Origin: Gymnodinialimonas ceratoperidinii
GTDB taxonomy: Bacteria; Pseudomonadota; Alphaproteobacteria; Rhodobacterales; Rhodobacteraceae
Assembly (NCBI RefSeq): GCF_019297855.1
Contig: NZ_CP079194.1
Coordinates: 186,001 to 250,000, forward strand
Direction of reading: 5' to 3'
Length of the DNA: 64,000 nucleotides
Numbering within the stretch: the first letter of the stretch is position 1; each line of letters starts with the position of its first letter. Shown one piece after another: positions 46,710 to 50,062 of the stretch. The notes beneath the pieces were generated by a model. It was given only the letters and a program-made list of their open reading frames with translations, did not search any database and was not told where the DNA came from. Both the position numbers and the translations under genes were made by a program.

Positions 46710-46779
46710 TTTCTTTTGACTTCTACCAGATGTGTGGCAACCTGAGGTCAGTTGAAACAAATCGGAAGGAGGTGATCCA

Positions 46780-46836
46780 GTGTCTAGAGAGGTATTGGAG
46801 AATGGTGTCGGGACAACTTGGGGGGCGCGCCGCTAG
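46780..46836 (+). CDS. 18-residue micro-ORF with near-perfect Shine-Dalgarno sequence
   Basis: GTG start at 46780, product MSREVLENGVGTTWGARR, TAG stop at 46834-46836. AGGAGG ends 7 bases before the start, ideal spacing, and the pairing to 16S rRNA extends over GATCC. Such a strong site for so short a frame suggests either a leader peptide or a deliberately ribosome-loading RNA. The peptide has no runs of one amino acid as in classical attenuators and no membrane segment. Function unknown. Confidence 0.5.
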   Translation: MSREVLENGVGTTWGARR

Positions 46837-46906
46837 GCAATCCTAGGGCTCACGCCCAACCCAGGTGAGCCGCTGGTTCTGACCGCGCCCACCTCCTGAT
46901 TTCTCG

Positions 46907-46937
46907 AAAGGGCTGCTCACCTTGGGCAGCCCTTTTT
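46907..46937 (+). terminator. Rho-independent terminator before arfB
   Basis: Perfect 10-bp stem AAAGGGCTGC / GCAGCCCTTT with a 9-base loop, ending in a T run. It lies 71 bases after the micro-ORF stop and 71 bases before the arfB start. Confidence 0.9.
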
Positions 46938-47007: not shown

Positions 47008-47424
47008 ATGCTGCGCATAACCGACGACATTTCGATCGAGGATTGGGAGATCACCGAGAGTTTCGTGCGCGCGGGCGGGCCGGGCGGGCAGAACGTGAAC
47101 AAGGTGAACACGGCGGTCGAGCTGCGGTTCGAGGCGGAGCGGTCTCCGAACCTGCCGGGGCCGGTGAAGACGCGGCTGAGACGGCTGGCGGGGCGGCGCT
47201 GGACCAAGGAGGGGGCGCTGGTGCTGCAGGTCTCGGAAGAGCGCAGCCAGGCCCGGAACCGAGATGTCGCCCGCGAGCGGCTGGCCGAGCTGATCCGCCG
47301 CGCCACGGTGGCGCCGAAAAAGCGGGTCAAGACACGGGTGAGCCAGAACCAGAAGCGGAAGCGGGTGGAGGCGAAGAAGCGGCGCGGAGAGGTGAAGGCG
47401 TTGAGGGGTGGGGTTGAGGAGTGA
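47008..47424 (+). CDS. arfB: Alternative ribosome-rescue peptidyl-tRNA hydrolase ArfB
   Basis: 138 residues from ATG 47008. The class I release-factor GGQ motif is at residues about 24-29 (RAGGPGGQNVNKVNTAVELR) and the C-terminal tail is strongly basic (KKRVKTRVSQNQKRKRVEAK), which inserts into the mRNA channel of stalled ribosomes. No codon-recognition domain, so not RF1/RF2. It frees ribosomes stalled on mRNAs lacking a stop codon, backing up the SmpB/tmRNA system. Confidence 0.93.
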   Translation: MLRITDDISIEDWEITESFVRAGGPGGQNVNKVNTAVELRFEAERSPNLPGPVKTRLRRLAGRRWTKEGALVLQVSEERSQARNRDVARERLAELIRRATVAPKKRVKTRVSQNQKRKRVEAKKRRGEVKALRGGVEE

Positions 47425-47658
47425 GGGAGTGTGCGAGCTTGCTTGGGGTAGTAAAATTATTGAATTTATTCATTTTAATCGATACTACGCGTGTTTGGCG
47501 AAGGATATCTCGGAGAAAGGTGGTTAGGTTCACTTCCGCTGGAGGCTCAAATACCGCTGATTATTAAGGAATGATGAGCTGGGGGCAGTGTCGACGAAAA
47601 GCTATGGTAACCACTTTTGGCGGGTTTAATTACGGTCCCTTAGCTGGGTAGCGGTAAT
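47425..47658. other. AT-rich gap between arfB and the Abi gene
   Basis: 234 bases with clearly lower G+C than arfB; no gene seen. Contains an imperfect hairpin AATTAC...GTAATT at about 47626-47660 that could act as the 3' end of the Abi transcript on the minus strand. Marks the left side of a likely acquired segment. Confidence 0.5.
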
Positions 47659-48612
47659 TTAGAAGAAAAGCTTCTCAGATTTCCAGTCGTCTGGAAATCC
47701 CATTGAGCGCAGGTGGTTAGTAGCTTCTTCGTGTTCATCAAATAAACCTTTTAGACTTGGACCTATTGGAGGCAAGCCAATTCGTTTAGAGATAACTTGC
47801 ATTACAGCCAAGGTAGTATAGAGACGATTGAATTGATTTTGTCCCGCTACACCGCCATCTATTTCGACTAAGTGAATATCTGAGTCTAGATACGCTTTGA
47901 CGCCGTCAGGTGCCGGAAAGTTCCTATTAAACAAGCGATTGTGATGAGCGCAGTGGTTTCGAACATCTCGGATGCAATGGATCCAGTTAGTTAGCTTCTT
48001 AAATTTGTCTGGCCCAATTTCTCTTCTCGTCCAACGGTCAAGCTTAAATTTAGAAATAGTATCCTCGGAAACGCTATTGAGCAGCGTCAACATATTGCCG
48101 AAGGTCATTAGCTCTATCGCCATCCAGCTCGGAGGCATAAGGCTGTAAAAGCTACAGTAATCGTTGTAGTATCGATCACGGAAGTGTCTTGCGAATGTTT
48201 CTTGAGACTCAAGAAACGCACTTCGAAGCTTATTTACCGTGTTTGCATAGGAAGCTGTGTTTCGACCAAAGAGGCTGGAGTCGAGGTACCAGAAGGAGTT
48301 CTCTGTTTTCGAGCAGATCGCTTCATTAAAACGAGTCCGGACAGCAATTTCGATACGCTGGATGTGCTTAAAAACTAGCAGGCGGAGTTTTTCATCAAAT
48401 TCGTAGAGCTGAACAGCTTGGTCCAGCGACGTGCCTTTAATAAAACCTCCATTCTCTCTGAACGGAAGGAGGTACGCCTTCAGGCGGTAGTACCCTTTTT
48501 CGTCCAACTGTTTTTCTGCAGCGGACGTGTCAGAAATCTCAAGTCCCTTGGACTTCAGATGCCTAACTTGTTCCGAAATGGATACCGGAGGGCGATTGTA
48601 AGAGCTCAACAT
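47659..48612 (-). CDS. Abi_2 (AbiD/AbiF) family abortive-infection HEPN protein
   Basis: 317 residues from ATG 48612 (a TTG at 48627 lies inside the terminator-like T tract). Family blocks in order: GYYRLKAYLLPF (~residues 40-51), LYEFDEKLRLLVFKHIQRIE (~70-89) with AVRTRFNEA, MPPSWMAIELMTFGNMLTLL (~159-178) and the RNHCAHHNRLFNR motif (~218-230). RNHCAH is an Rx4H HEPN ribonuclease signature. Members confer phage abortive infection; AbiF-type proteins have been described with an adjacent RNA partner. Three 60-base lines counted by eye have 22, 25 and 29 G/C, far below neighbours, so it is probably acquired. No good ribosome binding site is visible, consistent with low expression. A terminated hairpin RNA is predicted right upstream. 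Confidence 0.85.
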   Translation of the reverse strand: MLSSYNRPPVSISEQVRHLKSKGLEISDTSAAEKQLDEKGYYRLKAYLLPFRENGGFIKGTSLDQAVQLYEFDEKLRLLVFKHIQRIEIAVRTRFNEAICSKTENSFWYLDSSLFGRNTASYANTVNKLRSAFLESQETFARHFRDRYYNDYCSFYSLMPPSWMAIELMTFGNMLTLLNSVSEDTISKFKLDRWTRREIGPDKFKKLTNWIHCIRDVRNHCAHHNRLFNRNFPAPDGVKAYLDSDIHLVEIDGGVAGQNQFNRLYTTLAVMQVISKRIGLPPIGPSLKGLFDEHEEATNHLRSMGFPDDWKSEKLFF

Positions 48613-48625
48613 TATGAAATCATAC

Positions 48626-48675
48626 AAAAAGGCTTCCCCGCTTACGAGCGAAATCGCTCTGGAGGAAGCCGTTGA
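48626..48675 (-). ncRNA. Candidate small hairpin RNA ending in a terminator directly upstream of the Abi gene
   Basis: On the minus strand GGCTTCC (48670-48664) pairs with GGAAGCC (48637-48631), enclosing a second perfect stem GAGCG/CGCTC (48659-48655 with 48650-48646, loop ATTT), and is followed by five T (48630-48626). A promoter-like TTGCAA-17-TACATA lies just upstream. The predicted RNA is about 50 nt and ends 14 bases before the Abi ATG, so Abi mRNA needs read-through. Alternative: it is simply the pncB terminator, about 100 bases after that stop. Confidence 0.5.
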
Positions 48676-48682
48676 TGGCCTA

Positions 48683-48711
48683 TATGTAGTGCACAGAACG
48701 CGTCATTGCAA
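48683..48711 (-). promoter_or_regulatory. Candidate promoter for the hairpin RNA/Abi gene
   Basis: Minus strand: -35 TTGCAA (48711-48706), exactly 17 bases, -10 TACATA (48688-48683) followed by TA. The start would fall near 48676, just before the double hairpin. It lies in the intergenic region after the pncB stop. Confidence 0.45.
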
Positions 48712-48769
48712 GCGCTACTTGACTCGATGCGACAAATTTGACTCACAAGATATAGTGATTCGTGGTAGG

Positions 48770-50062
48770 CTAAACCACAACCTCCACCGCTTCCTGATCC
48801 CCCACTCCAAACACCCTCTTATACCGCGCGATCTCATCCGCCGGACCCATCGCCTTTTTCGGGTTGTCGCTCAGCTTGACGGTGGGGCGTCCGTTGGCGC
48901 TCACCGCCTTGCAGACCAGTGAGAAGGGGGCCAGGGCGTCGTCTTCCACGAGGCCTCGGAAATCGTTGGTGAGCAGCGTGCCCCAGCCGAAGGACACGCG
49001 GACGCGGCCGGCGAATTGTTTGTGCAGGGTCTCGATCTTGTCGACGTCGAGGCCGTCGGAGAAGATGATGAGCTTCTCGCGGGGGTCCTCGCCGCGGGAT
49101 TTCCACCAAGCGATGGCGTTTTCGGCGCCCGTCGCGGGGTCGCCGCTGTCGATGCGGATGCCGGTCCAACCAGCCAGCCAGTCGGGAGCGTTGTCGAGGA
49201 AGCCTTGCGTGCCGTAGGTGTCGGGCAGGATGATGCGCAGGTTGCCGGAATGCTCGTCGTGCCAGTCCGAGAGCACGTCGTAGGGGGCATTGGCCAGCGC
49301 GGTGTCATCCTCGGCGAGGGCGGCGTAGACCATGGGCAGTTCATGGGCGTTGGTGCCGATCGCCTCGAGGTCGCGGTTCTTGGCGATGAGGCAGTTGGAG
49401 GTGCCGGCGAAGCTCTCGCCCAGGCCCTCGCGCATGGCCTGAACGGCCCAGTCCTGCCAGAGGAAGGAGTGCCGCCGCCGGGTGCCGAAATCGGCGATGC
49501 GGAGCGAGGGATTGCCTTGCAGACGCTCGATCTTTTCCCAGAGCTTGGTCATGGCGCGGGCGTAGAGGACCTGGATCTCGAACCGGCCCATCTGGTCGAG
49601 CACGGCGCGGCCGCGCAGCTCCATCAGGACGGAGAGGGCGGGGATTTCCCAGAGCATGACCTCGGGCCAGGCGCCTTCGAAGGTGAGCTCGTATTGGTCG
49701 CCGACCCGTTCGAGGTGGTAGGGCGGCAGTTGCAGGTTCTCGAACCACTCCATGAAATCGGGGGAGAACATGGCGCGTTTGCCGTAGAAGGTATTGCCGC
49801 GCATCCACGTGCTTTCGCCGCGCTTCAGGCGCAGGGTGCGGATGTGATCGAGCTGTTCGCGCAGCTCGCCCTCGTCGATGAGCTTTGCGAGCGGGATGCG
49901 GGTGGTGCGGTTGATCAGGCTGAAGGTGACGCGGGTGTCGGGCTTGTTGCGAAACACCGACTGGCACATCAGCAGCTTGTAGAAATCCGTATCGATCAGG
50001 GACCGGACGATCGGGTCGATCTTCCACTTGTGGTTCCAGACTCGGGTGGCGATGTCGACCAT
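48770..50062 (-). CDS. pncB: Nicotinate phosphoribosyltransferase
   Basis: 430 residues. TDFYKLLMCQSVFRNKPDTR at the N terminus, FGTRRRHSFLWQDWAVQAMR and GTSNCLIAKNRDLEAIGTNA in the centre, and LIIFSDGLDVDKIETLHKQF near the C terminus match PncB. It makes nicotinate mononucleotide from nicotinate, completing salvage begun by pncA at 28006. Its 3' end borders the acquired Abi segment. Confidence 0.93.
   Translation of the reverse strand: MVDIATRVWNHKWKIDPIVRSLIDTDFYKLLMCQSVFRNKPDTRVTFSLINRTTRIPLAKLIDEGELREQLDHIRTLRLKRGESTWMRGNTFYGKRAMFSPDFMEWFENLQLPPYHLERVGDQYELTFEGAWPEVMLWEIPALSVLMELRGRAVLDQMGRFEIQVLYARAMTKLWEKIERLQGNPSLRIADFGTRRRHSFLWQDWAVQAMREGLGESFAGTSNCLIAKNRDLEAIGTNAHELPMVYAALAEDDTALANAPYDVLSDWHDEHSGNLRIILPDTYGTQGFLDNAPDWLAGWTGIRIDSGDPATGAENAIAWWKSRGEDPREKLIIFSDGLDVDKIETLHKQFAGRVRVSFGWGTLLTNDFRGLVEDDALAPFSLVCKAVSANGRPTVKLSDNPKKAMGPADEIARYKRVFGVGDQEAVEVVV

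Follow-up and report, generated by a model that had tools for sequence, protein, structure and literature searches.

The described systems closest to the present locus are those of AbiF-AbiFr, in which the protein goes with a non-coding RNA (Zilberzwige-Tal et al., as passages of PMC12373285 and PMC12737573 describe it) and which have been proposed as the ancestors of Cas13 (passages of PMC12165695, PMC12373285 and PMC12737573). According to the parts of PMC12373285 that deal with C. difficile, the AbiF system of this species is ordered promoter, RNA, terminator, toxin; transcription of its RNA, RCd22, ends for the most part ahead of abiF, and RCd22 binds the AbiF protein, which it neutralises in trans as well as in cis; a change of R202 or H207 in the RNQCAH motif abolishes toxicity. 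The same text places L. lactis AbiD1 in the AbiD/F group. Translation of abiD1 is described, in the corresponding passages of PMC2661086, as low in uninfected cells and as activated by a phage protein that controls the translation initiation region. ToxIN has a toxin of a different family and a tandem-repeat antitoxin (PMC12373285, in the section concerned).

In the window, the whole 64-kb stretch of DNA analysed here, an Abi_2 gene is preceded by a small structured RNA, and we propose that the two form an AbiF-AbiFr-like RNA/toxin module, a reading to which we give a probability of about 0.83. The gene family, the predicted fold, the catalytic motif, the RNA structure with its covariation, the linkage to the toxin and the independence from pncB support it directly. 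A sequence-only reading of the same DNA had claimed a minimal RNA-antitoxin/HEPN-RNase module, and this claim finds comparative support in the linkage, the covariation and the AbiF-ncRNA structure. The locus and AbiF-AbiFr have in common the HEPN motif, a small upstream RNA and the protein fold, the AF2 model of the Abi_2 protein matching 8vz6, a PbAbiF dimer bound to ncRNA, with E=3.9e-17 and TM 0.80/0.85; the identity of the two proteins is however 24% over the structural alignment. The C. difficile AbiF/RCd22 system, with the RF03085 motif, has the same order and the same RNA plan as the window, including a 6-nt 3′ bulge, whereas RCd22 has two motifs and a separate terminator in ~100-130 nt (PMC12373285, in the parts that describe it) and the window RNA has one motif in ~51 nt and is itself terminator-like. 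The sequences of stem, leader and bulge differ from those of the RF03085 abiF motif. As to AbiD1, the low translation reported in passages of PMC2661086 may be set beside the window gene, before whose ATG no clear ribosome binding site was seen; control through translation activation by a phage protein, as those passages have it, is in contrast not known at the window locus. A system of this kind is already known; what appears to be new is the variant represented by the RNA subfamily with its terminator-integrated form, and in the open-licence PMC literature searched no paper was recognised as describing this RNA class.

The features of the locus are the following (window coordinates):

48770..50062 (-), pncB-like gene, an ORF upstream of the Abi_2 gene on the same strand, given as context; we take it to be pncB, as in the sequence-only reading
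48706..48711 (-), -35-like hexamer TTGCAA, by sequence; weak and absent from the consensus-scan list
48683..48688 (-), -10-like hexamer TACATA, 6 nt before the RNA, with 3/6 consensus letters
48626..48676 (-), structured RNA of ~51 nt, proposed antitoxin and attenuator, by covariance model, folding and covariation
48671..48676 (-), single-stranded 5′ leader AUCAAC; class consensus AWCAAY in 11/11 rows
48662..48670 (-), outer stem, 5′ side GGCUUCCUC, pairing with 48639-48631
48660..48661 (-), 5′ bulge CA; CA or CU in 11/11 rows
48646..48659 (-), inner hairpin GAGCG-AUUU-CGCUC, by covariation
48640..48645 (-), 3′ bulge GUAAGC; class consensus GURAGM in 11/11 rows
48631..48639 (-), outer stem, 3′ side GGGGAAGCC, by folding and covariation
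48626..48630 (-), U5 tract, which makes the outer stem intrinsic-terminator-like
47659..48612 (-), Abi_2 (AbiD/F) HEPN gene, 317 aa, with ATG at 48612 and stop ending at 47659
47944..47961 (-), HEPN Rx4H motif RNHCAH, residues 218-223, aligned with the RN...H stretch of 8vz6

The Abi_2 protein and the RNA before its gene

Abi_2 is the sole Pfam match of the 317-aa protein (E=4.5e-46; 157.9 bits vs a curated cut-off of 25.6) and the one Abi_2 match of the whole genome; PADLOC assigns the protein to AbiD (E=4.8e-63), and the NCBIfam search with it gave no match. In an alignment of the window protein with 21 relatives of 39-80% identity, R218, N219 and H223 of the RNHCAH motif are invariant in all 22 rows. 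The fold search with the AF2 model (pLDDT 92.6) gave 34 PDB matches at E<=10, 8vz6 being the one at E<=0.001, and a sequence search of the PDB also returned PbAbiF 8vz6 as its one clear match (E=1.8e-30), with three others at E ~0.9. The Abi_2 gene with an Rx4H HEPN motif, as first read from the letters, is thus borne out by Pfam, PADLOC, the 22-row invariance and the 8vz6 fold, and by analogy with its relatives the gene product is probably a ribonuclease toxin.

Upstream of the gene and on the same strand there are two nested stems, GGCTTCCTC/GGGGAAGCC and GAGCG/CGCTC, followed by T5 at 48630-48626, with 13 nt between this tract and the ATG. The 51-nt RNA has a folding energy of -22.9 kcal/mol (z=-3.38, with 1 of 200 shuffles as good), its MFE structure showing the outer stem, a short 5′ bulge, the inner hairpin and a 3′ bulge of ~6 nt; the architecture score of the window RNA is 38, a value reached by none of 1000 shuffles of its upstream stretch, the highest of which scored 33. 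The claimed double-hairpin RNA with its T-tract is therefore present upstream of the Abi gene with a fold beyond chance. As regards the terminator claimed to follow the RNA, the terminator-like element is there in the form of the RNA's own outer stem with U5, and a separate terminator is absent. The class consensus runs from the leader AWCAAY through an outer stem of 9-10 bp, CW, an inner hairpin of 3-5 bp and GURAGM back to the outer stem and the U-tract, which is found in 11/11 class rows and is interrupted by one C in the orphan copy L102. Among eight class members folded alone, the MFE gives the drawn plan only in the window and in L045; the remaining six pair some of their bulge positions, for UC pairs with GA in L043, L088, L091 and L093, and L056 and L092 show other pairings. 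L088, L091 and L093 moreover fold barely better than shuffles (z -0.99 to -0.65). Because six of the eight single folds pair the junction otherwise, the exact bulges are unsure outside the window's own RNA. A pairing between the leader and the beginning of the gene, visible by eye in the window and in E. coli, was discarded as an idea, being absent in Aliivibrio, Salinivibrio and G849.

A covariance model, R1, was built from six relatives, without the window and without genome G407. It recovers the window RNA with 47.2 bits and E=4e-9 in the 64-kb window, and with E=2.2e-7 in the 3.6-Mb genome, where this is the best of two matches at E<=10; the second (L100, 28.6 bits, E=0.0101) was rejected, being by eye a simple intergenic terminator. 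A model R2 finds the RNA of G407 (L056), not part of it, with 32.5 bits and E=4.5e-5, and in this RNA several outer-stem positions are changed on both sides with pairing kept. In an 11-row alignment fitted to the model, two-sided changes occur in 7/13 pairs, 5/9 in the outer stem and 2/4 modelled pairs in the inner hairpin, and the covariation score is 0.397; 0/500 shuffles were as high in either measure, and slid versions of the structure gave at most 3 pairs and a score of 0.152. An 8-row alignment that was not fitted to the model, although its structure was chosen from these same sequences, gave 5/13 pairs (10/500 shuffles as high) and a score of 0.343 (0/500). The count of further pair types was not above shuffles (313/500 as high for 11 rows and 398/500 for 8 rows), and 8/11 rows leave one pair of the stem (columns 15-42) open. 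Covariation had been named by the sequence-only reading as a check on the hairpin, and the two-sided changes together with the recovery of the window RNA by R1 answer it positively: judged by sequence comparison, the 51-nt element is a real structured RNA.

The promoter claimed ahead of this RNA stands as far as its hexamers and their 17-nt spacing are concerned, and fails to be recognised by the promoter consensus scan, which does not list TTGCAA/TACATA and gives 2 other sites in the region vs 1.5 expected. By eye, a hexamer with 3 to 6 matches to TATAAT ends 6-7 nt before the RNA in 10/11 class rows; the scripted best -10 pick falls at 6 nt before the RNA in 5/11 rows only. Position lends weak support to a candidate promoter at 48711-48683 (-).

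Distribution of the RNA class and comparison with Rfam abiF

Plasmid-borne relatives that share 43-47% identity with the protein have the same RNA before their genes. Besides the window, the class comprises E. coli L043 and L046 and Salmonella L047, which have one sequence, Salmonella L053, Enterobacter L044 and L054, Pantoea L045, Salinivibrio L091, Shewanella L093, Aliivibrio pES213 (L092), with an identical sequence on a Vibrio cyclitrophicus plasmid (L089), the genomes G849 (L088) and G407 (L056), and two gene-less copies, L090 and L102. Inspection of the regions upstream of Abi homologues, proposed with the original claim, has placed the RNA before relatives' genes on plasmids of E. coli, Salmonella, Enterobacter, Pantoea, Aliivibrio, Salinivibrio and Shewanella and in the genomes G849 and G407. 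The clade is present in chromosomes as well as on plasmids, the latter from E. coli, Salmonella, Enterobacter, Klebsiella and Vibrionaceae, and 78 of the 102 plasmid records with matches are predicted to be conjugative. In E. coli, a DNA match to gene plus RNA is present in 33 of 5426 genomes, it spans the RNA in 33/33, and 35/35 places are on plasmids. Across 394 genomes of one order, R2 with Infernal's stricter filters gave 2 matches at E<=0.01 and the clade protein gave 1 at E<=1e-70, namely G849, where RNA and gene adjoin; the second R2 genome, G777, has the RNA without any Abi_2 match in the genome, which shows that the RNA can persist without the toxin. No further class members were found around G407 (48 genomes, E<=1e-40) or around G849 (12 genomes, E<=1e-70), and two protein scans of viral_contigs gave no relative of the Abi_2 protein. 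When viral_contigs was scanned with a DNA pattern, the single match, L055, was judged to be due to chance: it lies inside an ORF of a 6.5-kb contig, and Pfam, run on 6 of the 14 ORFs listed for this contig, detected families of filamentous-phage type without any Abi_2.

The copy in G777 (L102 1501-1549), with no adjoining Abi_2 gene, is an orphan antitoxin or a remnant. On a Salmonella Dublin plasmid (L090 1238-1285) IS26 follows the RNA in place of the Abi gene, on a Salmonella Dublin plasmid (L053 992-1477) the annotation gives the Abi gene that follows the RNA as a short frame of 486 nt, and in many Salmonella plasmid records the match covers no more than the first 66% of the query.

In a tree of 91 Abi_2 proteins, a single group of 15 (94/94) takes in all 11 RNA-bearing rows; its 4 remaining members are database proteins with DNA not read, and because these four carry no label, 2 changes of the class label are counted. 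Rows below 190 aa (L053 and L089 among them) and the identical row L016 were left out of the tree; L046, L047 and L093 closely duplicate other rows of the class, long-branch flags fall on L050/L051 and L036/L048, and five database rows of 375 letters come from an alignment, presumably with gap signs included. Outside the class, R2 matched no Abi_2 locus among 96 sources at E<=0.01, three such loci (L079, L082 and L086) having less than 150 nt upstream. Ten weaker R2 matches (12.7-21 bits) were obtained among these sources, and five of them (L024, L027, L031, L033 and L059) hint at distant kinship, since each sits precisely where the RNA would precede its gene.

The Rfam abiF model RF03085 gives no match at gathering in the window, none at E<=10 in 47400-48850 and none at E<=1 in L002 and L043-L047, and membership of the window RNA in this family was rejected for lack of a model match. 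The two nevertheless share the plan of outer stem, short 5′ bulge, inner hairpin and 3′ bulge, the RF03085 structure being an outer stem, a 1-nt bulge, an inner stem, a 6-nt bulge and the outer stem again. How widely this plan accompanies Abi_2 genes was scored with a descriptor that is fitted and not blind, because it was written after viewing these loci, and whose score rewards a 6-nt 3′ bulge. A score >=22 was reached by 66/84 Abi_2 upstream regions vs 139/1580 shuffles (8.8%), and a score >=28 by 54/84 vs 28/1580, five identical copies having been dropped from the regions and the shuffles having been made from 79 loci only; with identical copies kept and only three loci with too little upstream left out, the counts are 70/89 at score 22 and 58/89 at score 28. 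A count of 66/79 is flattering, for it leaves out ten loci as duplicates, among them six near-identical ones without structure. With a stricter descriptor the structure was found in 47/89 loci, in three of them plainly elsewhere (L014, L063 and L095), vs 43/890 shuffles. The 3′ bulge measures 6 nt in 48 of 66 structures, a length that the score favours, and ACAA stands near the stem foot in 31 of 66 Abi_2-linked structures of several classes vs 149/3300 control stretches (4.5%).

The ACAA leader recurs in RNA classes that are unlike in sequence, and it lies outside the RF03085 model. The abiF motif of phiC2 (L048 467-502) is just over the RF03085 gathering threshold (37.6 vs 37). Six loci of the window's own family (L003, L004, L006, L008, L009 and L010) score 30.1-32.2 with RF03085 at the same place before Abi_2 genes, vs the gathering value of 37, so that the RF03085 cut-off may miss part of the family. 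A near-identical Abi_2 group (L015, L016, L018, L019, L020 and L094), which spans own-family genomes and a Phaeobacter plasmid, is without the RNA plan upstream (scores 17-19) and has another RNA type or none.

Proposed mechanism, rival explanations and genomic setting

Because fold, motif, order and RNA plan are alike, we propose for the AbiF-AbiFr-like module the mechanism of RCd22; transcription, termination ratio, binding, neutralisation, toxicity and defence we infer from the relatives. A promoter near 48711-48683 (-) would drive a short RNA of ~50 nt, and termination at the U-tract that follows the outer stem of the RNA itself would stop most transcripts, with the result that the RNA would be made in excess. 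Occasional read-through would yield the mRNA of the HEPN ribonuclease, lacking a clear ribosome binding site. The RNA would bind the toxin dimer through the inner hairpin and the conserved GURAGM bulge and hold the ribonuclease inactive, and upon depletion of the RNA or failed termination, for example in phage infection, the toxin would cut RNA and growth would stop. Since the U-tract continues from the stem of the motif itself in 11/11 rows, one and the same fold would seem to serve as antitoxin and as attenuator. A tentative extension, which we hold to be possible and rather doubtful, is that the nascent hairpin is the terminator, that the toxin by holding it sets its own transcription, that the read-through mRNA carries the antitoxin in its 5′ leader and that the switch fires when termination is overridden. 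If this were true, firing would follow from, for example, a phage antiterminator or a phage RNA polymerase, and the switch would sense a phage strategy, not a phage molecule.

It is unlikely, in our estimate, that the RNA acts on the toxin mRNA alone, as its leader or attenuator, with no antitoxin binding to the protein. The stem with its U-tract is attenuator-like, the gene has no clear ribosome binding site and the L. lactis abiD1 precedent places control at the translation initiation region (PMC2661086, in the part cited above); for a plain attenuator, however, conservation of GURAGM, of the CW bulge and of the inner hairpin would be superfluous, the closest solved relative, PbAbiF 8vz6, was solved with ncRNA, RCd22 acts in trans (PMC12373285, in its C. 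difficile passages), and a copy of the RNA survives in G777, a genome without an Abi_2 match. Very improbable is the explanation by which the hairpin would be merely the terminator of pncB, with the Abi gene landed behind it by accident. The hairpin does share the strand of pncB, start 93 nt past the stop of that gene and finish with T5, but when the genomes of 12 relatives were asked, 11 of them with pncB, R2 (E<=10) gave 0/11 matches at the pncB loci, two of which are from the same genus, and the sequence after pncB differs by eye from the window's at each of them. On plasmids, where the listed neighbours include no pncB, Abi genes are preceded by the same RNA. Since it goes with Abi relatives there and is absent at 11/11 pncB loci, the RNA is not the terminator of pncB; the question of which gene the hairpin accompanies, raised along with the original claim, is answered in favour of the Abi gene. 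Least probable, and in our view next to impossible, is a canonical type III toxin-antitoxin system of the ToxIN/CptIN/TenpIN clan. The order promoter, RNA, terminator, toxin matches that of this clan, ToxIN having its RNA antitoxin and terminator before the toxin gene as here (PMC12373285, in the section on ToxIN), yet Abi_2 is the one Pfam match, NCBIfam gave none and 8vz6 is the one significant PDB fold match; tandem RNA repeats are absent, the one repeat pair in 47300-48900 lying inside the gene. Of the claimed type III layout the order is accordingly retained, and the canonical ToxIN type was rejected on account of the HEPN/Abi_2 family and the missing tandem repeats. Nor do we assign the locus to CRISPR-Cas13, a system with two HEPN domains and a CRISPR array, since the protein has one Abi_2 domain and no repeat array was found in 47300-48900.

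As a proposed AbiF-AbiFr-like module, the locus carries an RNA that the known family RF03085 misses, and its RNA class extends the AbiF RNA partner to a clade on plasmids and chromosomes. A second set of RNAs, unlike in sequence and alike in plan, narrows the essentials to the plan, the 3′ bulge and the ACAA leader, and the size of ~51 nt allows a direct test of antitoxin versus attenuator functions.

The low G+C claimed for the Abi gene is confirmed (0.449 vs 0.642 for the 64-kb window and 0.643 for pncB), and because the flanking stretches are low as well (0.457 and 0.465), the stretch ~47425-48769 looks acquired. No direct repeats flanking the locus were found, and two other genomes of the genus (G378 and G593) gave no Abi_2 match. 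In G378 (L042 1-1500) the slot behind pncB is occupied by a different gene, AAA-ATPase-like by eye, so that this slot may be an insertion hot spot. At 46756-46933 of the window (L002 595-772) there is a sub-threshold Rfam match to the Caulobacter sRNA CC2171 (36.2 bits, gathering 75, E=0.0004); this stretch contains GGAAGGAGGTGATCCA, which we take to be complementary to the usual 3′ end of 16S rRNA.
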